Assembly (NCBI GenBank): GCA_025774805.1
Contig: JALGZR010000002.1
Span: 1 to 64,000 of the forward strand
DNA length: 64,000 bases
Origin: a bacterium
GTDB taxonomy: Bacteria > ARS69
Direction: 5' to 3'
The position numbers were made by a program, and so were the translations under genes. Each line of letters opens with the position of its first letter. Positions within the stretch are counted from its first letter, which is position 1. The notes under the pieces are model-generated. The model saw only the letters and a list, made by a program, of their open reading frames with translations, made no database searches and was not told the DNA's origin. This document shows positions 5,389 to 31,168 of this stretch, one piece after another.

Positions 5389-5558
5389 AAGGCCCCTCTG
5401 GCCTCCCATTGCCCACCCTCTTCTCCCGCCATAAAATGGGAAGAATCGAACACGCTCGGACGTGGGACGTGGAAGGGGAAGTTCGCCCACCGCTTGCCCC
5501 TCGCATCGTCCCGCCCGGCGCAGGAGGAGCGCGCCGCCCCGATCAAGGAGCGAAATCC

Positions 5559-10970: not shown

Positions 10971-11165
10971 CTAGCCTCGATCCGTCAGAAAATCTCGGCG
11001 AAAAGCGCTAGCGCTCGCACGATAGCATGCCATCCGCGGCCGTGCTCGCCCTCGCCAATACTCACCTATCGTGAGATAAGCTCCGCTTGGCTCGGGCTGC
11101 GCGCGACCCCGGCTGGCGCGCTCTCGTGCGTTTTCCCTCGAGATCTTCTGACGGATCGAGGCTAG
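10971..11165. repeat. 195-bp element bounded by a 27-bp inverted repeat, one mismatch
   Basis: Bases 10971-10997 pair with 11139-11165 as reverse complements with a single mismatch; complementarity continues imperfectly inward (for example CGCACGA at 11016-11022 with TCGTGCG at 11124-11130). The right arm contains the TAG stop codon of isocitrate lyase (11162-11164). It may work as a long hairpin terminator for the two convergent genes, or be a MITE-like insertion that now supplies the stop codon. Confidence 0.7.
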
Positions 11166-12496
11166 AACTGCTCCTCCTCGGTCGACCCCGAGAGCGCCCC
11201 GACCGAGGTCTCGCCGCCGGAGATCGTCTCCATCACGCGATCGAAGTAGCCGGTGCCCACGAACTTCTGGTGGGTCGTGGCCATGTAGCCGTAATCCTTC
11301 TCGTGGGAGAACTCCTCGGCCTGGAAGTCCGCGTACGCCGTCATGCCCTGTTCCCGGTAGGAGCGCGCGAGATTGAACATCCCGAGGTTCAGGGAGTGAA
11401 AACCGGCGAGAGTGACGAACTGGAACTTGTACCCCATCGCCCCGAGTTCCCGCTGGAACTTCGCGATGGTGGCGTCATCCAGGTTTCCCTTCCAGTTGAA
11501 CGACGGGGAGCAGTTGTAGCTGAGGAGCTTGTTCGGGTACTTCTCGCGGATCGCCTCGGCGAAGCGCCTCGCCTCCTCGAGATCGGGCTTGGTGGTCTCG
11601 CACCAGATCATGTCGCAGTAGGGCACGTAAGACAGGCCTCGGTCGATGGCCATGTCGATCCCCCCGGTGATCCGGTAAAACCCCTCGGAGGTCCGCTCGC
11701 CGGTCATGAACTTCCGGTCGCGCTCGTCGATGTCGCTCGTGATCAGACGGGCGGCATCGGCGTCCGTACGCGCGATCAGAACGACGGGAGTCCCGCAGAT
11801 GTCCGCGGCCATCCGGGCCGCGATGAGCTTCTGGATGAACTCCTTGGTCGGGACGAGGACCTTCCCTCCCATGTGACCGCACTTCTTCGCGGAGGCGAGC
11901 TGATCCTCGAAGTGGACTCCGGCCGCCCCGGCCTCGATCATCTGCTTCATGAGCTCGAAGACGTTCAGCGGTCCGCCGAACCCGGCCTCGGCGTCGGCGA
12001 CGATCGGGGCGAACCAGTAAGGACCGTCCTCCCGCTCGTCCAGCATCTGGATCTCGTCCGCCCGCCGGAGCGCGTTGTTGATCTTGCGCACGACGACGGG
12101 GACGCTGTCGCTGGGATAGAGACTCTGATCCGGGTACATCTTGTCGGCGAGATTCGCGTCGGCCGCGACCTGCCACCCGCTGACGTAGATCACCTTGAGC
12201 CCCGCCTCGACCTGCTGCACCGCCATGTTGCCGGTGTAGGCCCCCAGCGCCGGGAGGAAATCCTCGGTGTGCAGCAGGTGCCAGAGCCGGAGCGCTCCAC
12301 TGAGCGCGAAGGTGTACTCGACCTTGAGGGTGCCCCGGAACTTCAGCATCTCCTCGACCGTGTACGGCCGCCGGATTCCCTCCCAGCGCTCGTCGCTCGC
12401 CCACTGCTCCTTGAGAAAGGCGATCCGCTCCGGATTGGGCTTGTGACTGGAGATCAGTTTCTCCAGCTCGCGGGCTCTCTGTTCCACCGTCAGCAT
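11162..12496 (-). CDS. aceA: Isocitrate lyase
   Basis: Cleaves isocitrate to glyoxylate and succinate in the glyoxylate shunt, allowing growth on acetate or fatty acids. The 444 residues match the usual bacterial length (about 430). Visible motifs are [10 protein letters not shown], the Mg-binding [10 protein letters not shown], the catalytic loop [14 protein letters not shown] with the active-site Cys, the second part [14 protein letters not shown] and the substrate-binding NCSPSFNWK. It lies 14 bases downstream of malate synthase in the same direction, forming an aceBA operon. Its last codons lie inside an inverted repeat. Confidence 0.97.
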
Positions 12497-12510
12497 CGTG
12501 TCTACCCCTG

Positions 12511-14082
12511 CTAGTCGATGTGTTCGTAAGCGCGAATCGTGAGGAACTCGTCCAGCTCCTCGCTGGAGATGATATCGTCGAAGAGGCGCGCGGCGAGGTC
12601 GTACTTACCGGCCTCGTACCGGGCATCCCCGAACGTCCGGCGCAGCGCGGCCAGCTCCTCTCCGAGGATCTCGTGGAAGAGCGGCAGCGTGACCTTGCGA
12701 CCGTCGTCCAGAATGCCTCGCGGGTGGTGGCTCCACTGCCAGACCTGGGTCCTCGAGATTTCGGCCGTGGCGGCGTCTTCCATGAGGTTGTAGAGCGGAA
12801 CGCACCCGTTGCCGTTCAGCCAGGCGGCCATGTACTGGACGCCGATCCGCACGTTCGTGCGGAGCCCCTCCTCGGTGATCGATCCCTCCGGCACCGTGAG
12901 GAGATCCTCGGCGGTGACCTTGACGTCCTCCCGGAGTCGCTCGACCTGGTTGGGAGTCGGCATCACGCGGTCGAAGACCTCCCTGGCCACGGGCACCAGC
13001 CCCGGATGCGCCACCCAGGTTCCGTCGTGCCCGTCGCCCGCCTCCCGCTCCTTGTCGGCGATGACCTTCGCGAAGGCGTCCTCGTTCGCGGCGGGATCTC
13101 CCTTGATCGGGATCTGGGCGGCCATTCCTCCGATCGCGTGGGCGCCGCGGCGGTGGCAGGTACGGATCGCGAGCTTCGAATAGCCGTGCATGCAGGGCAC
13201 GGTCATCGTGACCTGGGCGCGATCGGGAAGGATGTACTCGGGATGGTTGTGCAGCCGCTTGATCAGGCTGAAAATGTAGTCCCAGCGCCCGCAGTTGAGC
13301 CCTCCCGAATGCTCCCGCAGCTCGTACAGGATCTCGTCCATCTCGAAGGCGGCGGGTATCGTCTCGACGAGCACCGTCGCCTTGATGGTCCCGCGGGGAA
13401 TCCCCAGCTCCTCCTGGGCGAGAAGGAAGACGTCGTTCCACAGCCGCGCCTCGACGTGACTCTCCAGCTTCGGCAGATAGAAGTACGGCCCGGTCCCCCG
13501 ATCGATCTGCCGCTTCGCGTTGTGAAAGAGGAACAGGCCGAAGTCGAACAGGCTGCCGGAAATCGGAGAGCCGTCGAGCCGGACGTGCTTCTCCACCAGG
13601 TGCCAGCCGCGGGGTCGCACGAACAGCGTCGCGGGCGACCCTTCCAGGACGTAGCGCTTGCCCTCGGGGTTGGTGAACTCGATGTCGCCGGTCACGGCGT
13701 CCCGGAGGTTGATCTGACCCTGGATCGTCCCCGACCACGTGGGGGAGTGCGAATCCTCGAAGTCCGCCATGTACACGTTGGCCCCCGAGTTGAGGGCGTT
13801 GATCACCATCTTGCGTTCGGGCGGACCGGTGATCTCGACTCGCCGATCCCGGATATCGTCCGGAACGGGAGAGATCTTCCATTTCCCCTCCCGTACGCTT
13901 CGTGTCTCGGGGAGGAAATCAGGGCGCCGGCCGGCGTCGAACTCACGTTGCCGATCGGCCCGGCGGGCCAGGATCTCGCGTCGTCTCCCCTCGAACTCCC
14001 GGCAGAGCTTCTCGACGAACGGGATCGCCTGCGGGGTCAGGATCTCTCGAAACTCTGGAGTAGTGGGTCCGGCAATATCCAT
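12511..14082 (-). CDS. aceB: Malate synthase A
   Basis: Condenses glyoxylate with acetyl-CoA to give malate, the second step of the glyoxylate shunt. The start at 14082 ([15 protein letters not shown]) follows GGAAGGA and gives 523 residues, the normal size of the A isoform. Motifs include [35 protein letters not shown], the catalytic-base region [32 protein letters not shown] and [12 protein letters not shown], and the C-terminal [19 protein letters not shown]. It is first gene of the aceBA pair; a good promoter candidate lies about 150 bases upstream. Confidence 0.97.
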
Positions 14083-14229
14083 GGATATCCTTCCGTCGGG
14101 AGCCCCCGGTCCGAGGGACCGAGAGAGACGTCCCCTCCCCGTAGCCGACGGAAGCGATTCCGCGGGGGTGGCCACAATGGGCCGCTTCGGTCGGGTGTAC
14201 TCGTTCGGGGACGACCAAAGTGAGGTGAT

Positions 14230-17746: not shown

Positions 17747-18622
17747 TCAATACAGCAGCTCGACCCAGCGACGGCCGGCCATCAGCTCGGCCCGGCGACG
17801 CTCCCATTTCTCCTCGGATCCGGCCAGACCCGCGAACACCTTGTCGAGCTCGCTCCGCATCTTCTCGATCCCCGCCACGTAGACGTGGGTCTTCGGATCG
17901 CCCAGCATCCTCCAGAGCTCGTCGCCCCGCTGCGCGATCGTCTCTCCCCAGTCGATCGGGTCGTCCCAGCTCGGCCGCGGGCTCAGCGCCTGGAACGCCT
18001 CGAACGTCTCCTCGTCGTAGAACCGCGGAAAGTCGTTCTTCCGGTCGTTCATGTACAGCATCTCGAGACCGCTCTTGGCCCCGTAGAACAGCCACACGCG
18101 ACCCTTCCAGTCCGGGACGTTCCGGTAGATGTGCTTGACGAAGGCGCGGAACGGTGCGATCCCGGTTCCGCTGCCGATCAGGATCAAGTCGGCGTCCCGT
18201 TCCTCGGGAACCTCGAAGGGCAGACCGTACGGCCCCGTGATCGACAGCTCGTCCCCGGGCTTCAGATCGCAGAGGTAGTTCGACGCGACACCGTCGTACC
18301 GTTCGCCGCTGTACGGGTCGACGTAGCTGCAGCGCCGCACGCAGATCTTGATGCGGGGATTCCCCGACTCCGACCGTTCGGGAAGATCGGCCACGCTGTA
18401 CAGGCGGAAGTGGTACTCCTGTCCGAACTCCGCCGCACCGGGGGCGAGCACCCCGATGCTCTGACCGACCTGATAGGAGAAGTCGGGAAGATCCACGTCG
18501 AGCTCGATCTCCCGGACCTCCTCGTCCGATTGCTCCGAAGTGATGCACTCGCTGGAGACGACCGTCGTCCGGTAGCGCGTCTCGGTGTCGTAGTCGGCCA
18601 GTCGCGTGATCGTTTCGCTCAT
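17747..18622 (-). CDS. Ferredoxin-NADP(+) reductase-like flavoprotein
   Basis: Probably moves electrons between reduced ferredoxin and NAD(P)+. The 291 residues show the plant-type FNR order: FAD-binding RLYSVA (about residue 73), a flavin-side GVASNYLCDLKPGD, the NADP-side GSGTGIAPFR (about 150), VYVAG, and a C-terminal aromatic residue (WVELLY, final Tyr) that in this family stacks on the flavin ring. The start at 18622 follows GGAGGAGG. It is the last gene of the rnfB-PFOR-rnfCDGEA operon, 77 bases after the small Cys-rich gene, suggesting that it connects the ferredoxin pool of this module to NADPH. Confidence 0.82.
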   Translation of the reverse strand: MSETITRLADYDTETRYRTTVVSSECITSEQSDEEVREIELDVDLPDFSYQVGQSIGVLAPGAAEFGQEYHFRLYSVADLPERSESGNPRIKICVRRCSYVDPYSGERYDGVASNYLCDLKPGDELSITGPYGLPFEVPEERDADLILIGSGTGIAPFRAFVKHIYRNVPDWKGRVWLFYGAKSGLEMLYMNDRKNDFPRFYDEETFEAFQALSPRPSWDDPIDWGETIAQRGDELWRMLGDPKTHVYVAGIEKMRSELDKVFAGLAGSEEKWERRRAELMAGRRWVELLY

Positions 18623-18699
18623 GAAACCTCCTCCTCGCGCCGGGGCGGCGAGCCCTGTGGCCGACCGCGCTTGGCGCCGTGGATGACTCGGGCAGACTT

Positions 18700-18900
18700 C
18701 TACCCCGATTCGACTCGGTCCCGCCGTTCCTGCTCGCAGGCCCCCGCCCCCGCACAGCCGCGGCAGCCGAGGCGCCCCGCCAGCGCATCGGGATCGGAAC
18801 CCCGGCAGGGAAAGACCTTCCGCCAGGCGAACTGGATTCCCAACCAGGCGATCATCAGAACCACCATCGCCGCGAGTCCGGTCACGTAGCTCTCCAGCAT
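18700..18900 (-). CDS. Small Cys-rich single-helix membrane protein, NqrM-like
   Basis: A 66-residue protein: an N-terminal membrane helix (residues about 5-27) and a short tail with four cysteines (FPC, LGCRGCAGAGAC). Size, topology and cysteine pattern resemble NqrM, which helps insert the Fe centre between the NqrD and NqrE subunits, homologues of RnfA and RnfE. FeoB-associated Cys-rich membrane proteins look similar, so the name is provisional. It begins four bases after the rnfA stop, in the same operon, which favours a maturation role for the membrane Fe-S centre shared by RnfA and RnfE. Confidence 0.6.
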   Translation of the reverse strand: MLESYVTGLAAMVVLMIAWLGIQFAWRKVFPCRGSDPDALAGRLGCRGCAGAGACEQERRDRVESG

Positions 18901-18904
18901 CCCG

Positions 18905-19486
18905 TCAGCCTCCCAGCCCGGCGAAGCCCATGAAGGCGATCGACAGGAAACCGGCCAGCATCAGCGTCAGCGCGGTTCCCTTGACCACGTCGGAGATCGT
19001 GGCCAGCTCGAGCTTCTCCCTCAGTCCCGCCATCAGAACCAGCGCGATCGTGAATCCCACCCCCGCGCCGAGGGCATAGACGACGCATTGGATGAAGCCG
19101 TATCCCCTGTTCGTCTGAAACAGAGCCAGCCCGAGAATAGCGCAGTTCGTGGTGATCAGCGGCAGGAAGATCCCCAGAGCACGGAAGAGCGCCGGGCTGA
19201 CTTTCTTGATGAACATCTCGACGAGCTGAACCGTGGAGGCGATGACGGCGATGAAGGAGATCAGCCGCAGATAGGGGGCATCGATCGCCGTCAGCAACTG
19301 GTGGATTCCGAAAGCGCACGTCGAGCTGACCAGCATGACGAACGTCACGGCCCCTCCCATTCGGGTCGCCGTCTCCATCTTCCCCGAGACTCCGAGAAAG
19401 GGACAGATGCCCAGGAAGTACGCCAGGACGAAGTTGTTGATCAGGCAGGCGTTTACGAAGATCGACCAGAGGGGATCGCCGATCAT
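18905..19486 (-). CDS. rnfA: Rnf complex membrane subunit A
   Basis: The protein has 193 residues, the same length as Escherichia coli RsxA/RnfA, with six membrane helices. The family Cys motif is present in NNFVLAYFLGICPFLGVS and again in PLITTNCAILGLAL; these cysteines, with those of RnfE, hold an iron-sulfur centre in the membrane that carries electrons across the bilayer. The start at 19486 overlaps the rnfE stop (ATGA). It is the last of the rnf structural genes, followed by the small Cys-rich gene. Confidence 0.95.
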   Translation of the reverse strand: MIGDPLWSIFVNACLINNFVLAYFLGICPFLGVSGKMETATRMGGAVTFVMLVSSTCAFGIHQLLTAIDAPYLRLISFIAVIASTVQLVEMFIKKVSPALFRALGIFLPLITTNCAILGLALFQTNRGYGFIQCVVYALGAGVGFTIALVLMAGLREKLELATISDVVKGTALTLMLAGFLSIAFMGFAGLGG

Positions 19487-20136
19487 GGCGCCGCCTCCTC
19501 GGCCACGGATGCGAGGCGGGCCCCCCGCTCCTTGAGGTGGTTGAACAGGAGGACCCATCCGGCCAGGGCGAAGAACCCCCCGCTCGGGAGAATCATCATC
19601 ACCCAGTCCTGGAATCCGTCGTGGAAGAGGTGGATGCCGAAGAGCGAGCCGCTGCCCAGGATCTCCCGCACCGCTCCCAGGCAGAGCAGTGCGAACGCGA
19701 ACCCGACTCCCATGCCGAGGCCGTCCAGGATCGATCGTCCGATGCCGTTCTTGGAGGCGAACGCCTCGGCGCGCCCGAGAATGAGGCAGTTGACGACGAT
19801 CAGCGAAATGAAGGCGCCGAGCGCCTTGTGCAGTTCGAGGCTGATCGCCTGGATCAGGTACTCCACGATCGTCACGAAGGTCGCGATGACGAGAATGAAG
19901 GTCGCGATCCGCACCTGCTTGGGAATGAAGCGCCGGAGGGAGGAGACCACGAAATTCGACATGACGAGCACGAACAGCGTGGCGAGGCCCATCGCGAGCG
20001 CGTTCCGGGCGGTGTTGGAGACGGCCAGCACCGGACACATGCCCAGGACCTGAACGAAGACCGGGTTCTCCTTCCAGAGCCCCTTGATGAACTCGTCGGT
20101 CCCGCTCTTGGGCTGAAGCGCCGGTCCTCCGGACAT
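19483..20136 (-). CDS. rnfE: Rnf complex membrane subunit E
   Basis: The protein has 217 residues and six membrane helices. It is homologous in fold to RnfA with inverted topology, and has the paired Cys regions VFVQVLGMCPVLAVSNTARNA and ISLIVVNCLILGRAEAFAS that with RnfA ligand the intramembrane Fe-S centre. The C-terminus carries a short charged tail. It starts four bases after the rnfG stop and overlaps rnfA by four bases. Confidence 0.95.
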   Translation of the reverse strand: MSGGPALQPKSGTDEFIKGLWKENPVFVQVLGMCPVLAVSNTARNALAMGLATLFVLVMSNFVVSSLRRFIPKQVRIATFILVIATFVTIVEYLIQAISLELHKALGAFISLIVVNCLILGRAEAFASKNGIGRSILDGLGMGVGFAFALLCLGAVREILGSGSLFGIHLFHDGFQDWVMMILPSGGFFALAGWVLLFNHLKERGARLASVAEEAAP

Positions 20137-20139
20137 CCC

Positions 20140-20826
20140 TCACTCTCCCTCCCCGAAGTCCGCCAGGTTGCGGCGGAGCCGGGGGATCCAGTAGGCCGTG
20201 CTCTTGCTCAATATGTCCGCGATCGCCACCGAGGAGATCGTGGCCCCGGTGATTCCGTCGACCTGCCAGGGGTGCTCCTTCTCTCCGTGCTTCGTCGCCT
20301 CGATCGGGTGGAGGATCTCGGACCGATCCTCGGTCAGGGAGACGTCGAGCCGCCGGAAGTTCTCCAGGAACCCGGCGTCCGTCTCGATCTTGTCTCCCAG
20401 CCCCGGAGTCTCCTTGCTCTCGAGCACACGGAAGCCGACGACCGCGCTCTCGCCCGGAGAGTATCCGTAGAGAATCCGGATGACGTCCTGGTACCCCATG
20501 CCCGAGGCCTCGACCGCGAGTCCGACCAGCTCTCCCTGCTCGTCGTACCCGGCGTAGACGAGAGGCCGACCGGTCTCCTCCCCCGCCGAGACCTCGAAGT
20601 GCTCCTCACTCGTCATCCGAAACGTCTCGCTCGATCGCGCGGCGGGAAGAACCTGGAAGATCGCGCGCCGGAGGGCCTCCGCCTTGTTGCGCTCGATGAT
20701 CGGCCGCGTGATCTGGAACACGCTCACGATCAGCAGACCGCACAGGAGCCCCACTCCCACCATCGCCCGGTACATGTGCCAGACGCGGGGCGGGGCGGCC
20801 GGTCCGATCATCTCCGCCTGGCTCAC
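20140..20826 (-). CDS. rnfG: Rnf complex flavin-binding subunit G
   Basis: A periplasm-facing subunit anchored by one N-terminal helix (GVGLLCGLLIVSVFQIT). The covalent FMN attachment motif is DGITGATISS (Thr of TGAT), normally flavinylated by ApbE; no apbE gene is in the window. The family region SKETPGLGDKI is present. GTG at 20826 is taken as start because it overlaps the rnfD stop as GTGA and has GAGAAGAGGG upstream; ATG at 20811 is an alternative. 228 residues. Confidence 0.93.
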   Translation of the reverse strand: MSQAEMIGPAAPPRVWHMYRAMVGVGLLCGLLIVSVFQITRPIIERNKAEALRRAIFQVLPAARSSETFRMTSEEHFEVSAGEETGRPLVYAGYDEQGELVGLAVEASGMGYQDVIRILYGYSPGESAVVGFRVLESKETPGLGDKIETDAGFLENFRRLDVSLTEDRSEILHPIEATKHGEKEHPWQVDGITGATISSVAIADILSKSTAYWIPRLRRNLADFGEGE

Positions 20827-21848
20827 TCCCTCTTCTCCCGCCCCGAGGTCCCGTAAACGGTCGGTTGGATCATCCCGTCGATGTGCGGTACGATTGCATT
20901 CCCCAAGAGAATTGCGTACATCACTCCCTCGGGCATGCCTCCCCAGACGCGGATCACCACGACGAGGACTCCGATCAGCGCGCCGTAGAGGACGCACCCG
21001 AGGGAGGTCATCGGCGATCCCACCATGTCGGTGGCCATGAAGACGGCGCCGAGCATGAGCCCCCCGGAGAACAGCATGAAGAGAGGCGAGGCGTAGGCCT
21101 GCGAATCCAACGTGTACAGGATTCCCGAGAAGGCGGCGACCGTTCCCAGGATGGCGACCGGGATCCGCCAGTTCATCATGTTGCGCGCGACGAGGTAGAG
21201 ACCCCCGAGCAGGATCAGCAGACTCCCGGTCTCCCCCGTCGACCCGCCGATCATCCCCAGAGCGAGATCCCCGGTCCCGGTCAGCACGCGATCGAACTTC
21301 CAGAGGGCCAGCGGCGTGGCCCCCGTGACGGCATCGTAGACCGGCTCGGTGAACGGAGGAGTCAGGGTGGAAGACGGAAGCGAGGAGAAGCGCCCGGGGG
21401 TGAATCCCGAAATCCAGCTCGTCATCGCGACGGGGAAGGCGGCCTGGAGCACGGCCCTGCCGACCAATGCCGGATTGAAGGGATTGCCTCCGAGTCCGCC
21501 GAAGAGCCACTTCCCCAGCGCCACGCCGATGAATCCACCCACGGCGACCATCCAGAGCGGCAGTCCGGGGGGCAAGGTCAGACCGTAGAGGAGGCCGGTG
21601 ATCGTCACGGACCAGTCCGCGAGCGTGGACGACCTCCGGACGAATCGACAGATCAGGTGCTCGGTGAGCACACAGGAGAGCGTCGCCGTCACGAGAGTGA
21701 GCAGGCCGGCCAGGCCGAAGGCGTACACCGCGAACGCGGTCGTCGGGATCAGCGCGAGCACGACATTGAACATGATCGTGTCGACGCTGTACCCGCTGAG
21801 AATGTGGGGAGACGTCCGGATCTCGAGCGTCTTCGTCAGGGGTGCCAT
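20823..21848 (-). CDS. rnfD: Rnf complex membrane subunit D
   Basis: A 341-residue integral membrane protein with about nine to ten helices. It carries the second covalent FMN site (DAVTGATPLA) and the hallmark LGGNPFNPALVGRA, plus FMATDMVGSPMTSLG. With RnfG it passes electrons across the membrane while ions (Na+ or H+) are pumped. It overlaps rnfC at its start and rnfG at its end by four bases each, indicating strict translational coupling. Confidence 0.96.
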   Translation of the reverse strand: MAPLTKTLEIRTSPHILSGYSVDTIMFNVVLALIPTTAFAVYAFGLAGLLTLVTATLSCVLTEHLICRFVRRSSTLADWSVTITGLLYGLTLPPGLPLWMVAVGGFIGVALGKWLFGGLGGNPFNPALVGRAVLQAAFPVAMTSWISGFTPGRFSSLPSSTLTPPFTEPVYDAVTGATPLALWKFDRVLTGTGDLALGMIGGSTGETGSLLILLGGLYLVARNMMNWRIPVAILGTVAAFSGILYTLDSQAYASPLFMLFSGGLMLGAVFMATDMVGSPMTSLGCVLYGALIGVLVVVIRVWGGMPEGVMYAILLGNAIVPHIDGMIQPTVYGTSGREKRE

Positions 21849-23182
21849 CAGGCCGCTCCCGCCTTGCGGACCGCGGCCTTGGCGTACCGGAACTGGTGCA
21901 CGAGCGGGATGTGGGAAGGGCAGACGAAGGAGCAGGAGCCGCACTCGAAGCAGTCCATCAGGTGGTACTCGTCCGCCATACGCTGGTACTGCGAGCTCTG
22001 CGAGAGGATTCCGAGTTGAGCGGGATTGAGGAAGATGGGACAGGCGTCGACGCAGTACCCGCACCGGATGCAGGGATAGACGTTCCGGTACGTGCGCGTG
22101 GCCTCCTCGTCGTGGAACGCGACGACGCCGGACGTCCCCTTCGTGATCGAGATGTCCAGGCTCGACGCCGCCTGGCCCATCATCGGACCTCCCAGGAAGA
22201 CCCGGTACACGCTCTCGTCGACGCCGGCGCTCTCGAGGAGAAAGCGCAGCGGCGTTCCGATGGGGATGCGGTAATTGCCCTTCCGCCGGACCGCGGGGCC
22301 GGTGATCGTGATCACCCGCTCCTGGATGCCGCGTCCGCGCGGAAGCAGGCGACCGATCTCCGCGGTCGTCGCCACGTTGACGCAGAGTGAGTGCACGTCC
22401 AGGGGGAGGCCGCCGGAGGGCACCTCACGGCCGAGGAGGGCCGCGATCAGCATCTTCTCGGCCCCCTGCGGATACTTGACGCGGAGGACCTCTACCGAGG
22501 CCGGCAAATCCGCCGGGAGCTCCGCTCGCAAGTGCTCGGCGGCGTCGGCCTTGTTCGCCTCCACTCCGATGATCACTCGCTCCGCTCCCGTGACCCGGAG
22601 CAGGTACCGGATCCCGGTGAAGACGTCCTCGCTCTGCTGCAGCATGACCCGGTGATCCGTCGTCAGGTACGGCTCGCACTCGATCCCGTTGATGATCAGG
22701 GTGTCGACGTACTTGTCATCGGGGATCTTGAGCTTGACGTGGGTCGGAAACGCCGCGCCGCCGAGGCCGACGACCCCGGCGTCCTGGATGGCGGCGATGA
22801 TCTCGTCCGGGGTCGCCGTGTCCAGCGAGCACGGCATCCCCTCCATCACTTCCTGCGTGGATCCGGGGTGGGGCTCGAGGTAGACCGACGGGACCATGCG
22901 GCCCGTGATGCTCGGAGCCAGTGCGATCCGGCGCACGACCCCGGAGGCGGGAGCGTGCATCGACACGGAGACGAAGCCGTCGGGGCGGGCGATCCGCTGG
23001 CCCCGCGCCACCTCCTGTCCTTCCACGACGACCGGCTGCGACGGCTTGCCCATGTGCTGGATCAGCGGGATGATCAGCAATGGGGCGAACGGAAACTGCC
23101 GGATGGCGAGTCCGCTCGTCTCGTCCTTCGACTCCGGCGGGTGAACGCCGTGCCGGAACGTCTTCAGCCCCAGCAGTCCCAA
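21848..23182 (-). CDS. rnfC: Rnf complex NADH-oxidoreductase subunit C
   Basis: The cytoplasmic subunit that exchanges electrons with NAD+. The 444 residues include an N-terminal barrel-sandwich region (FRHGVHPPESKDET), the nucleotide/FMN-binding GLGGAAFPTHVKL and INGIECEPYLTTD, and two complete [4Fe-4S] motifs near the C-terminus (CIRCGYCVDACP and CFECGSCSFVCP). The TTG at 23182 is taken as start, with GGGG just upstream. It follows the stop of the giant PFOR gene by 16 bases, so PFOR lies between rnfB and rnfC in one transcript. Confidence 0.95.
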   Translation of the reverse strand: MGLLGLKTFRHGVHPPESKDETSGLAIRQFPFAPLLIIPLIQHMGKPSQPVVVEGQEVARGQRIARPDGFVSVSMHAPASGVVRRIALAPSITGRMVPSVYLEPHPGSTQEVMEGMPCSLDTATPDEIIAAIQDAGVVGLGGAAFPTHVKLKIPDDKYVDTLIINGIECEPYLTTDHRVMLQQSEDVFTGIRYLLRVTGAERVIIGVEANKADAAEHLRAELPADLPASVEVLRVKYPQGAEKMLIAALLGREVPSGGLPLDVHSLCVNVATTAEIGRLLPRGRGIQERVITITGPAVRRKGNYRIPIGTPLRFLLESAGVDESVYRVFLGGPMMGQAASSLDISITKGTSGVVAFHDEEATRTYRNVYPCIRCGYCVDACPIFLNPAQLGILSQSSQYQRMADEYHLMDCFECGSCSFVCPSHIPLVHQFRYAKAAVRKAGAA

Positions 23183-23198
23183 TTCCCCGGCCCCGGCG

Positions 23199-26100
23199 TT
23201 AGATGAACTTCTCGCCGCGCTTGATCCACTTGTCGATGTCTTTGGCGCTGCGGTCCTTCGGCAGCCCCGGATGAATCACCCGGGCCGTGCAGCGCTCGGC
23301 GGCCTTGACCAGATCCTTGTACGGCCCTCCGAAGGGATCTTTGATGACCGCCTTCTTGTCCGCGTTGTAGACGAAGATCCTGGAGTTCAGGTTCGTGCAC
23401 TCGTCGCAGGCCGTGCACAACGGGGTGTCGATCCACGGGGCCATGTAGTCGCCCGCCACGGCGGGCGCCCCCGCCGGAGCGGCCTCGGTCGCCGCCGCTC
23501 CTTCGGCGAGCGCCGCCAGACCCTCGCCCGATCCTCCGGCGAGCTGCATCAGCCCCGACGCGATCTTGCCGACGACCTCTCCCCGGATCTTCTCCGCGAT
23601 CTCTTCGCGGGAGAGCTCCTCCATGCCCGTCCCCGCCAGCGCCCGAAGCATGGTCCAGAAGTCGCGCCGGTCCTCGCACGATTCCACCATCATCTTGTCG
23701 ACGAGCAGTCGGCTGAGCTTCTGCGCGCTGACCACGGACCAGACGTAGGGGAACAGTCCTTCGCGCTCGTCCTTCGCCATCTCCAGATACTCGGCCAGGG
23801 GGACCATGTTCTCGTTCCAGGTGTCCGGCGGCGCCACGCGGAAGTGCTTCCGGAAGCGGATCTCGGTGATGGCGAAGTCCGCAAAGGTCATGGGCAGCGT
23901 CATTTCCCTCGTCCGACCCCCCTCCCGGTACTGAATGGTGTAGGTCGGCCAGTCCTGATCGATGGACGGATTGCCCTCCAGGTCGAAGCACTCCTCCGGG
24001 GTCTTGCCCTGGTCCGGGTCGTAGCGGAACAGCGGATACGCCCGGGACTCGACGGCCAGCTTGGCCTGCCGCGCGCTCATGTCGTCCCCGATGCCGTGCT
24101 CCGGCTGACACGAGGTGTACAGATTGAAGAGCGCCGGACGCCGCGCCTTCAGTCCGCGGATGAAGCCCTCGATCATGTGACTCGGATAGGCGATCGTGCT
24201 CTGCATCACGTAGGTCGTCCGGTGGGCCATCCCCAGCAGCCCGATCTCCTTGCGCGGCTCCTGCTTCCCCTGAATGGCCTTGCCGTACTGGGCCATGTCG
24301 GAGATCTGACCGAGGAACCCGGAGCTGCACGCCTGGCCGCCCGTGTTCGAGTACACCTGCGTGTCGACGACCAACACCTTGATCGGCTTGGCCGAAGCGA
24401 GCGCACGAGAGAGGTTTTGGAAGCCGATGTCGTACATCGCCCCGTCTCCGCCCACCGCGACGACCGGTGGACAGAGCTCCCACTCCTCGTCGGTGAACTT
24501 CGTCCAGTTGAAATAGGTGAAGAGCTCGTCGTGCTCGGCCGGGTCGTACTTTCCCTCGAGCTCCAGCTCGGCCATCCGGATCGCCTTGAAGCCTTCCCCC
24601 ATCTTCGCCATGTGGCCTTCGAAGACGCCCATCGCCATCGACGCCGGATCCTGGAACAGGTGGTTGGCCCAGGGGAAGGGATAGGGGTTGAAGGGGTAGG
24701 TGCTGCCCCAGACCGACGTACACCCGGTGGCGTTGAGCATTCCCATCTTGGAGCGGCCGCCCCCGGTGGTTCCCTCCAGGTACTTCCACTTCAGATCCTT
24801 GAGCTTGGTCATGAGCTGAGTCACCCGCTGCAGCCACTCCTGGTCGATGGGCTGTCCTCCCGTGCGGCTCTCCATCCGCTCGGCGATGCTGGCGAGTGTG
24901 AGGTCCTTGTCCTGAAAGTCGCTCACGATCTCCGCCATCGAGTCGCCGACGTTGATCTCCTGCACGAGCTCGAGCTGGATGTGCTTCTCCAGCTTCTCGA
25001 TCAGCTCGGTGAGGCGATCGAGGTGCCTCCGGATGCGAGGCTGCATCAGCGCCTCGACCGTCGCGATGAACAGGTGCAGTACCGTCTTCTCCGCGCAACC
25101 CAGGCAGGCGCCCTCTCCGCTCGTGAGGGCGAGGTAGCTCGTCTTGTCGAGTAGGATCGTCTCCAAGGCGCCGATCCCCTCCTCGATGTCGTCGACGCGG
25201 ATGTACCTCTCCGGAGTGTTCGGCAGGTCGAGCCAGAACTCCCACTGCTCACGGAGCTTCTTGATGGACTCGTCCGTCTGAGGCAAGGAACGGAGGGCAT
25301 CGTCGTCGCAAACTTCAACGCACTCCATGCATCCCTTGCACGTGTACGGATTGACCGTGACGGAAAACAGACCGCCGCTGCCCGCGTCCCGGGTCTCGGG
25401 AAGGGTGTAGTAGGGACGCGTCAGGGCGAAGGGGAATCCGTCCAGCTCCTCGCGAAAGAGATCGAGCTCCTTGGTGAGCCGTTGCTTGTCGGGGCCCTCG
25501 AGGTCGATCTCCTTGATCGTCTTGGCGATGGCCTCCTCCAGCATGCCGCCGACCGGGTCGGTCTCCTGGGCCTCGGTCAGGAGGCTCCGGAGGTGTCGCT
25601 CCACGATCCGCATCGCCTTGGGGAGGTGCTGGATACCGTCCCCGTTTCCGCTCCCGTTCTTCCGCACCCGCTCCACCACGGTGTCCAGGACCTGGCCGAC
25701 CTCGTTGACCAGACCCGGGATCGCGGTGTCGGGACAGACGGTGTAGCACTTCCCGCACCCCGTGCAGTTCTCGGGAATGAACTCAGGGTGCTCGAAGCGG
25801 ATCCCCGTCATGTCGCGAAACAGGGCGGAGCACACCGGCATCACGCCGAGACCGATGAACGGGTCGGTGATGTTGTCGTTGCCCATGCCGCGGGCGTAGA
25901 AGTTGCCGGTCTGCTCCCAGAAGCGGTGGATGTCCGTCATCGGGGCCTTGCTCTGCGGAATCGACTTGACCATCACGGGGATGTCGGGCTCGGCTCCGGC
26001 CGCCTTGCTTCCGGCCGCCGGCTCGGTGATCGGCCCCGGCAAGACCTCGATGATCTCGTCGAAGCCGCGCTTCACGACCCGCATGTTGTCCTCGACCACT

Positions 26101-28166
26101 CGCGCTCCCTTGGACCCGAACTTCTCCTGGAGCTGATCGTGGATCGCCTCGAGGAGCTTGGCCTCGTCCAGTCCCGCCTGCTTCATCACCGGCGAGGCGG
26201 CGAAGAACGCGCCCTGGAACGCGATGCCCTGCATGCGAAGCTGAAGGTCGGGGTCGGTCGCCTCCTTCCGGGCGATCTTGAACCCGTCGACGGCGAAGAC
26301 CTTGATCTCATTGTCGATGATGATCTTCTGGAATCCGGGGGGGATGGTCTCCCAGACTTTCTCAGACGTCGTGTGCTCGCTCTGGATGATGAAGACCCCG
26401 CCCTCCTTCAAACCCGCCAGCGCGTTCGTGTGGTTGAACACGTTGGGATCGGGAGAGAGCACGACGTCTACGTAGAAGTACTCCGAGTTGACCCGGATGG
26501 GCTCGGGAGCGGCCGAAAGGTAGTACGTCGTCGGCTGACCCTTCTTCTCCGAACCGTACTTGGGATTGGCCTTGATCTGATAGCCCAGCAGATCGAACAG
26601 CGTCATCGCCAGGTTTTTGCCGGTGGTGATGGCCCCCCAGCCGCCGACGGAGTGGAACCGCACCGTGATGCTGTTTTCGGGCATCAGGTTCGGATTCTCG
26701 GAGCCCCGCACCGACAGCTCCCGGACCCGCGGGTAGGCCTCCTCGATCGTCTGCTGATACATTTCCTGCTTCGGCGTGAACGGCGTCTCACGGATGAAGT
26801 CGATGGAGAGGTAGAACAGTCGCTTGCGCCCGCCGTCGGGAAGCATGTTCTCGACCGCACCGACGATTCCCTCGGGTTGCAGATCGCGGCTGCCCATCCC
26901 GAACGATCCGGAATAGAGCGGTGGGGCGTCGGTCAGGGCCTCGTAAGTCGCGAGCTCGGGGTAGATCGGGTTCCGCGGGTCCTTCCCGTTCTCCAGGCAC
27001 TTGCCGACGGTGGCGCGGATCTCGCGCATCAACGGGAGATCGACGGCCAGCGGCTGGTCCAGCCGCTCGAGCACGGTGACGCCTTTTCGACCCTTGACGA
27101 TGCGGCTGATCAGGTCACCGGGGAACGGACGGAACATCACGAAGTCGACGACTCCGATCTTGATGCCCCGGGTCTCCCGCAGGTAATCGGCGACGGCTTC
27201 GGCGGTGGGAAGCAGACTGCCCTGTCCGACGATCAGGTAGTTCGCGTCCTCGGCGCGGTACGTCTTGACCCGCTCGTAGCGCCGCCCCGTCAGCTCGTAG
27301 AACTCCCGGAACGCACGATCGGCCAGCTCCTGGATGTGGTCGAAGAAGAAGGGCCGTTGAGCCGCGACGCTCTGCATGTACGAGTCCTGGTTCTGTACCA
27401 GACCCGCCATCACCGGGTTGTCGACGTCCCAGAGCTTGGGAATGCGTCGCCTCGTCTCTCCGTAAATGATCCGCTGCGCCGGCGTCGGCGTCTCGATGAT
27501 GTCGTCCGGGCGTCCAAGGTACTCCTCGATCAGCCCCCGCTCGGGCACCCTCATCGACTCGATCAGGTGGGTGGTCAAGAAGCCGTCCTGGGCGATGGCA
27601 CCGGGCGTCAGCGAGAGCTCGGCGATCCGGTGGGCGATGATGTTCAGGTCGCCCGCCGACTGCGCGTCCTTGGCGAAGAGCTGGAAGAAACCGGTGTCGT
27701 CGATGCAGTGGTAGTCGTCGTGCCCGGCGTGGACGTTGAGGTTGGCCTTCGTCATCGCCCGGGCCCCGATGTTGAGCACGTAGGTCAGACGCTTCCCGAC
27801 GGCGGCGTAGAGGGACTCGTGCATGTAGGCGACGCCCTGGCCGGACGAGAAGTTCGCGGCTCTCAACCCGGTCATCGCCATCCCCGCCGTCACCGCGGCG
27901 GCCGCGTGCTCGCCTTCGGGCTCGATGAAGATCAGAGGTCGACCGGACACGTTGACGTGTCCCGCGGCCGCGGCCTCGGCCCAGTACTCGCCCATCTGAG
28001 TCGAGGGGGTGATCGGGTAGGCGCCCGCCCCATCGGTTGATTCGCGCTCGCACATGATGACGGCCGTATTGCCGTCCATGGCGGCACGGATCCCGGGGTA
28101 TTTGAAATCGCCCCTGTTCTTCTTCCGCTCGTCTTCGTTCTTGCGAGCGAGAGTCCGTACTGACAT
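23199..28166 (-). CDS. nifJ: Giant pyruvate:ferredoxin oxidoreductase with fused C-terminal ferredoxin
   Basis: Oxidises pyruvate to acetyl-CoA and CO2 and reduces ferredoxin. At 1655 residues it is far longer than usual (about 1180). Order: pyrimidine domain (GAYPITPSTQMGE, about 50), transketolase-like domain II, gamma domain (SVGGWGAITTGKNLA, about 505), first cluster CTGCGKCYTVCP (about 799), second CKGCMECVEVC (about 941), TPP domain with CLGCAEKT (about 1019), NATGCTSVWG (about 1143), GGDGAMYDIGFQN (about 1237) and SNTGGQ, LYTSCQPEHG. Two inserts, about 130 residues between the ferredoxin motifs and about 95 within the TPP domain, explain part of the size. The end (about 1580-1655) is an extra ferredoxin-like unit (CTACDEC...C). 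It sits between rnfB and rnfC. ATG at 28166 is preferred. Confidence 0.93.
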   Translation of the reverse strand: MSVRTLARKNEDERKKNRGDFKYPGIRAAMDGNTAVIMCERESTDGAGAYPITPSTQMGEYWAEAAAAGHVNVSGRPLIFIEPEGEHAAAAVTAGMAMTGLRAANFSSGQGVAYMHESLYAAVGKRLTYVLNIGARAMTKANLNVHAGHDDYHCIDDTGFFQLFAKDAQSAGDLNIIAHRIAELSLTPGAIAQDGFLTTHLIESMRVPERGLIEEYLGRPDDIIETPTPAQRIIYGETRRRIPKLWDVDNPVMAGLVQNQDSYMQSVAAQRPFFFDHIQELADRAFREFYELTGRRYERVKTYRAEDANYLIVGQGSLLPTAEAVADYLRETRGIKIGVVDFVMFRPFPGDLISRIVKGRKGVTVLERLDQPLAVDLPLMREIRATVGKCLENGKDPRNPIYPELATYEALTDAPPLYSGSFGMGSRDLQPEGIVGAVENMLPDGGRKRLFYLSIDFIRETPFTPKQEMYQQTIEEAYPRVRELSVRGSENPNLMPENSITVRFHSVGGWGAITTGKNLAMTLFDLLGYQIKANPKYGSEKKGQPTTYYLSAAPEPIRVNSEYFYVDVVLSPDPNVFNHTNALAGLKEGGVFIIQSEHTTSEKVWETIPPGFQKIIIDNEIKVFAVDGFKIARKEATDPDLQLRMQGIAFQGAFFAASPVMKQAGLDEAKLLEAIHDQLQEKFGSKGARVVEDNMRVVKRGFDEIIEVLPGPITEPAAGSKAAGAEPDIPVMVKSIPQSKAPMTDIHRFWEQTGNFYARGMGNDNITDPFIGLGVMPVCSALFRDMTGIRFEHPEFIPENCTGCGKCYTVCPDTAIPGLVNEVGQVLDTVVERVRKNGSGNGDGIQHLPKAMRIVERHLRSLLTEAQETDPVGGMLEEAIAKTIKEIDLEGPDKQRLTKELDLFREELDGFPFALTRPYYTLPETRDAGSGGLFSVTVNPYTCKGCMECVEVCDDDALRSLPQTDESIKKLREQWEFWLDLPNTPERYIRVDDIEEGIGALETILLDKTSYLALTSGEGACLGCAEKTVLHLFIATVEALMQPRIRRHLDRLTELIEKLEKHIQLELVQEINVGDSMAEIVSDFQDKDLTLASIAERMESRTGGQPIDQEWLQRVTQLMTKLKDLKWKYLEGTTGGGRSKMGMLNATGCTSVWGSTYPFNPYPFPWANHLFQDPASMAMGVFEGHMAKMGEGFKAIRMAELELEGKYDPAEHDELFTYFNWTKFTDEEWELCPPVVAVGGDGAMYDIGFQNLSRALASAKPIKVLVVDTQVYSNTGGQACSSGFLGQISDMAQYGKAIQGKQEPRKEIGLLGMAHRTTYVMQSTIAYPSHMIEGFIRGLKARRPALFNLYTSCQPEHGIGDDMSARQAKLAVESRAYPLFRYDPDQGKTPEECFDLEGNPSIDQDWPTYTIQYREGGRTREMTLPMTFADFAITEIRFRKHFRVAPPDTWNENMVPLAEYLEMAKDEREGLFPYVWSVVSAQKLSRLLVDKMMVESCEDRRDFWTMLRALAGTGMEELSREEIAEKIRGEVVGKIASGLMQLAGGSGEGLAALAEGAAATEAAPAGAPAVAGDYMAPWIDTPLCTACDECTNLNSRIFVYNADKKAVIKDPFGGPYKDLVKAAERCTARVIHPGLPKDRSAKDIDKWIKRGEKFI

Positions 28167-28245
28167 CGAAGCCCCCAATCAGGTCCGAACGAGACCGGCG
28201 TGATCGACACGGCCGGTTCTACCTATGGCAACCTGTTCCTCTTCC

Positions 28246-29109
28246 TCATGTCGGGGCGTCGCGGAGGGCGCCCCTGCGGATGATCCTCTTGGCGGCCCGA
28301 CCCTTGACGGGGCCGATGGTCGCATCGATCCAGACGATCGCCCCCGTGGGGCACCGCTGGATCGGAACACGCGTGTCGTGGTCCCGCTCGTAGTCGACGA
28401 TCGGAAGATTGCCTTCCATCGAGATCAGTCGAGGCGCGTCCAGCGCACAGCGTCCGCACGCGGTGCAGGCGACCTCGCAGTCCTCGAGCAGCTCGTCCCC
28501 GGCCTCCTCTGACTTGCAGGCGACCCACAGTCGATGGCTCGCCGGGTGCAGCGAAAACAGATCCTTCGGACAGGCTTCGACGCAGTCACCGCACGCCGTG
28601 CATCGGGACTCGTCGACGACCGGCAGGGCGTGCTCGTCCATGGTGATCGCCTCGAAGTCGCACACCTCGTAGCAGTCCGCGAGCCCGAGACAACCGAAGA
28701 AGCAGCCCTTTCCTCCTCCTGCGACCTGGGCGGCGGCGGCGCAGGTCATCAGCCCATGATAGCGGGCCCGGTTGCGCGCCACGTTCGTGCCCCCGGCGCA
28801 GGCCAGCCGGGCGACCCACCGTTCCTGAGCTCCGACGTCGACGTCGAGGAAGGCCGCGATGGCCTCTCTCCCCTCGTCAGAGCTCACCGTGCACTTCCCC
28901 GGCAGGACCTCGCCCCGAATCAGCCCCTCGGCAAAGGGGCGGCAGCCGGGGAAGCCGCAGGCACCGCAGTTGGAGAGGGGCAGCATCTCCTCGACGATGT
29001 CGATGCGCGGGTCTTCCTCAACGTAAAGCTTTTTGTTGGCCAGGACGAGAAGCGATGCGAGAACGAATGCGAGTCCGCCGATCGCGCCGACAGCCGTCAA
29101 AACGAGCAT
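28246..29109 (-). CDS. rnfB: Rnf complex ferredoxin-docking subunit B, altered C-terminal cluster set
   Basis: The first gene of the operon. An N-terminal membrane helix is followed by the [4Fe-4S] domain LSNCGACGFPGC and an extended ferredoxin region with KGCFFGCLGLADCYEVC and CTACGDCVEACP. In the last ferredoxin pair the first three cysteines are present (C215, C218, C221) and the final CP cysteine too (C253), but the fourth is Ala225 and the expected CxxCxxC before C253 is missing. In a two-cluster ferredoxin that pattern keeps exactly one cluster and removes the other. 287 residues. The PFOR gene starts 79 bases after its stop. Confidence 0.92.
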   Translation of the reverse strand: MLVLTAVGAIGGLAFVLASLLVLANKKLYVEEDPRIDIVEEMLPLSNCGACGFPGCRPFAEGLIRGEVLPGKCTVSSDEGREAIAAFLDVDVGAQERWVARLACAGGTNVARNRARYHGLMTCAAAAQVAGGGKGCFFGCLGLADCYEVCDFEAITMDEHALPVVDESRCTACGDCVEACPKDLFSLHPASHRLWVACKSEEAGDELLEDCEVACTACGRCALDAPRLISMEGNLPIVDYERDHDTRVPIQRCPTGAIVWIDATIGPVKGRAAKRIIRRGALRDAPT

Positions 29110-29356: not shown

Positions 29357-30988
29357 TCAGTCGGCCCGCCCCCCGGGCCGGATCTCCACGATCTCATCGG
29401 TCAGATCGGACTGGGGATTGACGCCCCGCGGATCGACGACGACGCGTCCCACCTGACCGGGGTCCCGCAGGAAGATCGCCTTCGTGCTGTCGGAGGGAAT
29501 CACGAGGTCGTAGTCGCGCAGCAGATCTCCTTCGGGCGTGAAGACGGCGATGGTCGCCATTCCTTTCAGTTGCCCCCGATTCTCGACCTCGACGCGGAGC
29601 TGCTCTCCTCCCCGCCCGTCGGCCACCACCTCGTGAGAGACGATCCGGAAGTCGGGGAGCTGAGTCGTCCCGATGTACGGCGCGAGAAATCCATGCTGGT
29701 CCGCGAACGCCCAGCGGAGCTTGTCCCGGAAGTCCTTGCCGCTCGCGATCCGACCCTCATTCTCGGTGCGAAACTCCGAGAGCATCTCGATCCAGTCGGA
29801 CTCCGACCCCGCGGCCTCGGCCATGAGATGGGCCACGAGCGCTCCGCGCGTCTCCAGAACGTGCCGGCCCTCGAGGGAGAGGGCCGAGACTTCCGAGATG
29901 GCCCGATCCCGCTGAATGCCCTTCAGGAACGCCTCACGACGGGATCCGATGACGATCGACTCCCGGGCGAGACGGTTCTCCGGCGCGGCGAACGCCGAAA
30001 CCGCCGCGTCCCCGAGGTAGAGAGGGATCGCGCGGGCGAGCCAGGGCCCCGTGCCGTGCCGAAACCGAATCGACTCGGTCCAGAATCCGGCGGCGAGCGC
30101 CCCGGCGAGGTCGCGATCCAGGAGGGTCGAGGCGGGCTCCCCGGTGATCGACCGAGCGGCCGACTCGTCCCAGAAAAGCGTGCGCTGACCGCCGGACACC
30201 ACTCCCTTCCCCACGTCGATGAGCCTCCACGGGCCGGAGCCCGCGGCATCGCCGAGTCCGGCCTGATGGGACCGGATCACCTGCAGAATCGTGTCGATCC
30301 GAGGAGGCGGGCCCGAATCCTCGGCTCGGCGATACAGGACCACGGTCTCTTCGGAGGCGGACGAATCCCCTCCGGTGTGCTCGGAGGACACGTACTCCCC
30401 CCACACGGCGTAGGGTCTTCCCGGGATCTCCGCCTCCCATCCCCCCTCCGGTGCGGGGCGTCCCGCGGCGATTCCCGTCATCGTGGGCGGAAGGGTGAAG
30501 GTCGTGACGTGGGCGACCAGCTCTTCCATTTCCATCGAGGTTCGGGGAAACCAGCCGGAGTCGGGCAGGAGGAACCCGCCCCGCTCGTCCTGGTGGAGGC
30601 CGGGGGAGTCCTGCGGAACGATACTCCCGCGGAGCGTGACGGTCCGGGAATGGCCCGGCTCGAGCATGGTGGGGAGCTCGACGGACCAGATCCGCATCCA
30701 CGTTCCGTAGACGTCCCGGTGGGAGAGAAGGAGATCCTTCCCCTCCGAGAAGCCGGCCGTCACCGAGACATCGCGCGAGAGATGGACCTCCAGTCGCAGG
30801 AACGGCGCATCTCCCTCCGCGTACCAGTCGAATTCGGTCGTCCAACCGATCCGAGCCGGGTCGGTCAGGTCCAGCTCGATGCGGGCGCGCTCGATCGAGT
30901 CCCCCCGGGCCACAGGAGTCGCGGTCAGCAGTGCAAGAGTGGCCGTGCCCACCAGGGACACGACTCGGGTGGAGAAGGTTGGGGGCAT
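29357..30988 (-). CDS. Secreted M1-peptidase-like protein without the zinc motif
   Basis: 543 residues with a signal peptide (LVGTATLALLTATPVARG). The layout resembles M1-type proteins: an N-terminal beta domain, a middle catalytic-like domain and a C-terminal beta domain (VEVENRGQLKGMATIAV). Where M1 enzymes have HExxH followed by WLNEGFA, I see LDRDLAGALAAGFWTES and WLARAIPLYLGD, so zinc-binding residues appear lost. It may be a non-catalytic scaffold or binding protein; the family call itself is an inference from layout. The start at 30988 has GAGGA upstream. It is divergent from the kinase at 31169 and 247 bases upstream of rnfB on the same strand. Confidence 0.55.
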   Translation of the reverse strand: MPPTFSTRVVSLVGTATLALLTATPVARGDSIERARIELDLTDPARIGWTTEFDWYAEGDAPFLRLEVHLSRDVSVTAGFSEGKDLLLSHRDVYGTWMRIWSVELPTMLEPGHSRTVTLRGSIVPQDSPGLHQDERGGFLLPDSGWFPRTSMEMEELVAHVTTFTLPPTMTGIAAGRPAPEGGWEAEIPGRPYAVWGEYVSSEHTGGDSSASEETVVLYRRAEDSGPPPRIDTILQVIRSHQAGLGDAAGSGPWRLIDVGKGVVSGGQRTLFWDESAARSITGEPASTLLDRDLAGALAAGFWTESIRFRHGTGPWLARAIPLYLGDAAVSAFAAPENRLARESIVIGSRREAFLKGIQRDRAISEVSALSLEGRHVLETRGALVAHLMAEAAGSESDWIEMLSEFRTENEGRIASGKDFRDKLRWAFADQHGFLAPYIGTTQLPDFRIVSHEVVADGRGGEQLRVEVENRGQLKGMATIAVFTPEGDLLRDYDLVIPSDSTKAIFLRDPGQVGRVVVDPRGVNPQSDLTDEIVEIRPGGRAD

Positions 30989-31168
30989 GGCGGCAAGTCC
31001 TCGACGGGGAAGCGGCCGGCGGAGGATCCGCCGGCAGTCGGCGTAAGAGGATATCACAGGTCCCGCTCGAACCGAGTCCTCATCGGGCGAGAAAACCCGT
31101 GGTCTCGACGCACCGGCGCCTTATCCTGAAGCGTTGCCCACGGACCGCGCCGGGGAGGGAGATGCGGG

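Follow-up and report, generated by a model that had tools for sequence, protein, structure and literature searches.

A giant PFOR with a tethered ferredoxin domain encoded within a conserved rnf gene cluster

Why does the gene for a pyruvate:ferredoxin oxidoreductase (PFOR) lie in the middle of the genes for an Rnf ion pump, and does this reflect a physical unit or co-regulated neighbours? The question is raised by a locus within a 64,000-nucleotide stretch of bacterial DNA, here called the window. Nine genes, all on the minus strand, span positions 17747-29109 by their open reading frames. They are listed below in the order of transcription, together with two segments of PFOR.

28246..29109, minus strand: rnfB, 287 aa; membrane helix, FeS domain and ferredoxin-type clusters, with the last cluster of canonical RnfB lost
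23199..28166, minus strand: giant PFOR, 1655 aa; TPP motifs and three classical [4Fe-4S] clusters
23451..23528, minus strand: disordered Ala/Pro/Gly-rich linker, PFOR residues 1547-1572; pLDDT under 50, variable composition
23202..23450, minus strand: tethered ferredoxin domain, PFOR residues 1573-1655; Pfam Fer4_13, alignments, model and fold search
21848..23182, minus strand: rnfC, 444 aa; RnfC_N, FMN/NADH-type 51K domain, SLBB and two ferredoxin clusters
20823..21848, minus strand: rnfD, 341 aa; TGAT flavinylation-type motif
20140..20811, minus strand: rnfG, 223 aa; TGAT motif in an FMN-binding domain
19483..20136, minus strand: rnfE, 217 aa; HMM match
18905..19486, minus strand: rnfA, 193 aa; HMM match
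18700..18900, minus strand: 66-aa one-helix Cys-rich membrane protein; W..VQ..W, D.L.GR and a Cys cluster
17747..18622, minus strand: plant/cyanobacterial-type ferredoxin-NADP reductase (FNR), 291 aa; match to 2b5o_A, E 8e-45

Gene layout and the giant PFOR

The identities of RnfB, C, D, G, E and A, of the POR domains and of FNR are backed by HMMs from Pfam and NCBIfam. Gene order, coordinates and content agree with the original prediction, including the insertion of PFOR between rnfB and the remaining rnf genes and the extra ferredoxin domain of PFOR. The several ATGA/GTGA overlaps claimed there reduce to two, one of 1 nt between rnfC and rnfD (TGATG) and one of 4 nt between rnfE and rnfA (ATGA). 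The other genes are separated by gaps of 79 nt (rnfB-PFOR), 16 nt (PFOR-rnfC), 11 nt (rnfD-rnfG), 3 nt (rnfG-rnfE), 4 nt (rnfA-small protein) and 77 nt (small protein-FNR). A simple, uninformative scan inside the module gave no credible promoter or terminator. Directly upstream of rnfB, a predicted protein of 566 aa (29357-31057, minus strand) has zero Pfam or NCBIfam matches. About 9 kb from the module, the window encodes a second 2-oxoacid:ferredoxin oxidoreductase with a VorB-like alpha chain and a fused beta-gamma chain (5001-8395, plus strand). Adjoining genes for isocitrate lyase and malate synthase A (11162-14175, minus strand) form a glyoxylate shunt.

The locus encodes all six Rnf subunits (A, B, C, D, G and E), and RnfC combines the NADH/FMN 51K-type domain with ferredoxin clusters. 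RnfA, B, C, D and E score above the TIGR cut-offs; RnfG, with 98.5 bits against 102, stays slightly under and yet is clearly homologous. RnfB matches 7zc6_B with an E-value of 9e-55. Its last cluster is missing in 63/63 RnfBs of the module, and we considered this loss as compensation for the PFOR ferredoxin. It is not diagnostic, as about 8/18 other RnfBs lack the cluster too.

PFOR is encoded by one open frame. Its length is no artefact, because homologues in other genomes mostly have 1630-1680 aa. It carries the POR_N, PFOR_II, POR and TPP domains, PFOR-type motifs such as YPITPST and YSNTGGQ, and the TPP and three-cluster motifs that make up the domain content of TIGR02176. By analogy with PFOR, the cluster ligands are Cys 801/804/807/953, 943/946/949/811 and 1021/1024/1149/1353. 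The TIGR02176 equivalog score is 390.6 bits against a cut-off of 911, and since all TPP and cluster motifs are present, we regard the giant PFOR as a divergent subfamily. With motifs as the evidence and a score below the equivalog cut-off, pyruvate is not certain as its substrate. A related PFOR type, 35-43% identical, occurs at three other loci (L036, L037 and L149), and the stretches read there showed no rnf genes; the L036 copy is complete and has no C-terminal ferredoxin domain.

The C-terminal ~80 residues of the giant PFOR form a ferredoxin domain for a single [4Fe-4S] cluster, with Cys 1584, 1587, 1590 and 1626 retained throughout the alignments. Every full-length giant PFOR examined ends in such a domain; its apparent absence in seven PFORs was due to a too narrow search pattern or to truncated contigs. 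The stretch before it is poorly conserved and rich in Ala, Pro, Gly and Glu. In a single-chain AlphaFold2 model of residues 1390-1655, the linker has a pLDDT under 50 and the domain about 90. Foldseek gave Desulfovibrio africanus ferredoxin I (1fxr) as the top PDB match (probability 1.00, target TM 0.84, rmsd 1.0), with an E-value of merely 0.02 that refers to the whole two-domain model.

The 66-aa protein is conserved in most module loci and is possibly a cluster-maturation factor or a small subunit. An NqrM-like iron-sulfur maturation protein was considered and rejected, the window protein having no Pfam match and 14 members no relevant one. The FAD and NAD(P) domains of FNR are homologous to those of the PetH type; its 171.9 bits lie below the PetH equivalog cut-off of 600.

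Conservation across genomes

The scan of species genomes returned at least 594 PFOR relatives, and we read the best 80 loci; these are the nearest relatives, and the rates given here may not hold in distant members. Among these best 80, rnfC lies directly downstream of the giant PFOR in 67 of the 69 loci with at least 600 nt of downstream flank. In 38 of the loci read, the gene for RnfB directly precedes PFOR; in 27 it lies at the opposite end of the cluster, which is the order of Bacteroidota and a few others. Of the 54 loci with enough sequence, 50 carry FNR, and a role of FNR in making NADPH is plausible. At least seven host phyla are represented, cultured aerobes and oxygen-breathing marine species included; the record titles name Myxococcota, Gammaproteobacteria, Planctomycetota, Bacteroidota, Calditrichota, Hydrogenedentota, Verrucomicrobia and Thermoanaerobaculia. 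A genome from the same family as the window also contains rnfB-PFOR-rnfC-rnfD. Because the module occurs in many phyla and in cultured strains, errors of metagenome assembly cannot explain it. The trees of PFOR, RnfB, RnfC, RnfD and FNR are congruent over 51 loci (r 0.77-0.92, permutation maxima at most 0.24), which shows joint inheritance, not contact. Given the adjacency and the congruent trees, the arrangement is more than chance.

The two exceptions to PFOR-rnfC adjacency are L048, where PFOR is followed by FNR on a short flank, and L085, where no rnf gene lies near PFOR. Both PFORs keep the ferredoxin domain, so this domain can exist without adjacent rnf. As a base-rate control, we took 18 RnfB loci of other lineages from a sample of 60 genomes; 1 of these 18, all read with short flanks, has a PFOR homologue beside rnfB; this locus is itself a Kor-Rnf module as described below. 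In a drawn sample of Bacteroidota, the giant PFOR was present in 2 of 296 genomes, one of them the centre of the draw, from which we take the module to be rare and patchy.

The PFOR-Rnf order is not unique to this contig, so the finding that would have refuted the original prediction does not occur. The physical or stoichiometric tie of pyruvate oxidation to Rnf proposed there gains support from the conserved adjacency, from the rearrangement as a unit in Bacteroidota, from the tethered ferredoxin and from the second module; the coupling itself we still infer.

Two side observations concern other gene sets. In Woeseiaceae and in one Lysobacterales genome (L090, L094 and L111), the rnfB-PFOR module is closely preceded by genes read as KorA, KorB, KorG and an HdrA-like flavoprotein. 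The window's genome also contains a third Rnf-like gene set (L181, G000:C282:76000-85562) in which RnfC-like and 908-aa RnfB-like proteins are encoded beside an apparent multiheme cytochrome, an apparent ferredoxin-type subunit and an apparent NrfD-like membrane protein.

A second module with a degenerate PFOR

A second conserved operon has the order KorA-KorB-pseudo1-RnfB2-pseudo2-RnfC2DGEA (L033, L121, L122, L146, L147, L148 and L176) and occurs in the window's family and in other phyla. In the window's own genome, KorA-KorB-pseudo1-RnfB2-pseudo2 is found on another contig, which ends inside pseudo2, and rnfC2 was not found in this genome. Contigs from two sister genera continue beyond pseudo2 with rnfC2, D2 and G2. 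The full set through RnfE2 and RnfA2 stands uninterrupted in one Phycisphaerae and one Calditrichales genome; an unrelated genome has it with a single gene inserted. A Calditrichaeota genome has it contiguous as far as rnfC2, near which the stretch read showed no more Kor-Rnf genes.

Most of pseudo2, which measures 1260-1494 aa in complete copies, is homologous to the giant PFOR. The YPITPS, NATGC, GDG and YSNTGGQ motifs are gone, as are the ligands of the proximal cluster. The ferredoxin-type clusters of pseudo2 are kept in some copies and lost in others, and the copies without clusters can hardly be more than scaffold. Pseudo1 resembles the C-terminal part of PFOR but has none of its active-site motifs; it still carries the ferredoxin domain, with L041 as the exception. 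KorA scores above the cut-off for 2-oxoacid:acceptor oxidoreductases, KorB fits the PorB/KorB family slightly under the cut-off, and the last RnfB cluster is missing in 6/6 RnfBs of this module. None of the Kor-Rnf stretches examined contains FNR.

Two genomes combine KorAB and an active-type giant PFOR in one rnf operon, namely a Myxococcales genome and that of Gemmatirosa kalamazoonensis, where the operon lies on the megaplasmid. In both, KorA and KorB are followed by a pseudo1-like gene and then by rnfB, PFOR and the other rnf genes. One natural reading is that both oxidoreductases may at first have shared a single Rnf, and that after duplication of the operon one copy specialised for Kor, its PFOR decaying to a scaffold. 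The Kor-Rnf module would represent a natural experiment in which catalysis was lost and the scaffold kept, and this operon deserves a study of its own.

Proposed function and relation to known systems

We put the chance at about even that the nine genes encode one electron-transfer unit, in which PFOR is dedicated to the Rnf pump and its tethered ferredoxin passes electrons to RnfB. Physical assembly is the best explanation because a PFOR with its own ferredoxin lies beside RnfB, which receives electrons, and RnfC, which delivers them, and because a degenerate copy is retained in the same slot when another enzyme supplies the electrons. That a degenerate PFOR persists beside a different oxidoreductase points to the enzyme as a physical component of the pump. 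Given such a contact, we infer electron path, direction and substrate as follows. Electrons would leave the TPP site via the three classical PFOR clusters and reach the ferredoxin domain, which would act on its flexible linker as a swinging arm and deliver them to RnfB, not to the free ferredoxin pool. Rnf would exchange electrons with NAD(H) at RnfC and move ions, and FNR may swap electrons of the ferredoxin domain with NADP(H). When pyruvate is oxidised with ferredoxin as acceptor, the potential left relative to NAD suffices for ion movement by Rnf, a gain that the ordinary pyruvate dehydrogenase forgoes. The likeliest net direction would be pyruvate oxidation, as an energy-conserving alternative to pyruvate dehydrogenase, with the chemistry being reversible. 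Tethering may also keep low-potential electrons away from oxygen, which would be one reason for such a carrier. The parallel Kor-Rnf module would serve another 2-oxoacid, probably 2-oxoglutarate, with the dead PFOR as adaptor.

A rival explanation is that PFOR reduces a diffusible ferredoxin used by Rnf and FNR, with the operon setting the stoichiometry and no contact between PFOR and Rnf. In known anaerobes, free ferredoxin links the two enzymes, operons often gather the members of a pathway, and PFOR has no adjacent rnfC in L085 and L048. However, a PFOR that depends on a diffusible pool would not be expected to carry its own ferredoxin domain, and such a pool has no need for the degenerate PFOR kept between RnfB2 and RnfC2 in several phyla. 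We consider this explanation rather improbable.

The main alternative on direction is reverse use of the same physical unit. Ion gradient and NADH would reduce the tethered ferredoxin, and PFOR would work as pyruvate synthase on acetyl-CoA and CO2 for carbon assimilation in aerobes. All 25 hosts checked have genes for COX1-type heme-copper oxidases and for E1 2-oxoacid dehydrogenases (E1_dh). The oxidases place the role of the module in cells able to respire oxygen, and because the E1 enzymes give these cells other means of oxidising 2-oxoacids, an oxidative role is not forced. Reverse Rnf is established in Azotobacter (PMC12174285), and the Melioribacter authors proposed carboxylation of acetyl-CoA by PFOR (PMC3534657). 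Against reverse use, the glyoxylate shunt next door in the window's genome already serves C2 growth, and the Kor partner suits an oxidative cycle at least as well. A consistent dedicated driver, light-driven or other, is lacking; with rhodopsin in 5/25 hosts, we rejected light-driven reverse flow. Overall, reverse use seems unlikely.

It is very doubtful that Rnf and FNR form an energy-linked NADH/NADP transhydrogenase via the ferredoxin domain, with PFOR as side input: FNR is of the NADP-type plant family and frequent among the best 80 of at least 594 relatives, but the Kor-Rnf stretches examined do without it, and the core slot is taken by PFOR. Known organisms supply nitrogenase with electrons through Rnf (Rhodobacter, Azotobacter) or through a NifJ-type PFOR, but as a general role of the module this supply is refuted, and it is scarcely conceivable here, as 1 of 25 hosts, which is not the window's genome, has a nifH above the curated cut-off.

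Returning to a PFOR dedicated to Rnf, we tentatively consider ion-pumping 2-oxoacid dehydrogenases as a possible new class of respiratory enzymes. PFOR, or KorAB via a dead PFOR adaptor, would be structural in a dedicated Rnf, a swinging ferredoxin would replace the diffusible one, and low-potential oxidation of 2-oxoacids could thereby conserve energy in aerobic cells. If true, some Rnf complexes are built around one oxidoreductase and are not only pumps for a shared ferredoxin pool. In place of pyruvate and 2-oxoglutarate dehydrogenase, oxygen-respiring bacteria would have an alternative that pumps ions, and it would be explained how PFOR can run where oxygen is present. The cultured hosts Gemmatirosa, Marivirga and Persicobacter make the module directly testable.

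As far as we have seen, the parts are known and the assembly is apparently undescribed in the open literature. Open full texts gave no description of the rnfB-PFOR-rnfC operon or the Kor-Rnf module, which is not proof of absence; the same holds for targeted reading of an RNF/NQR review (PMC12174285), a paper on NQR evolution (PMC4014512) and the Melioribacter and Caldithrix genome papers (PMC3534657, PMC5317091).

Compared to Rnf of Clostridium tetanomorphum and Acetobacterium woodii (PDB 7zc6, 9eri), the six subunits are the same, with a clearly homologous RnfB and common RnfC, D and G domains and TGAT motifs. The PFOR gene inside the operon, the 66-aa protein and FNR are additional here, and RnfB is without the last ferredoxin cluster, a trait common to some other RnfBs. 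With the one-chain PFOR of D. africanus and Moorella thermoacetica (PDB 1b0p, 6cin), the giant PFOR shares POR domains, TPP motifs and three clusters; it is ~450 aa longer, with extra segments and the tethered ferredoxin. This domain matches D. africanus ferredoxin I (PDB 1fxr) in fold and single-cluster Cys pattern, but the latter is a free protein, whereas the domain here is covalently tethered. Similar to KorAB of aerobes (Mycobacterium type), KorA is a gamma-alpha fusion accompanied by KorB; here, both belong to an operon that also includes a dead PFOR and all rnf genes. The NQR-fumarate reductase supercomplex of Prevotella bryantii (PMC8516057) sets a precedent, as in it an Rnf/NQR-family pump binds a metabolic oxidoreductase. 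Pump and partner differ, and the link is quinone there and a tethered ferredoxin here.
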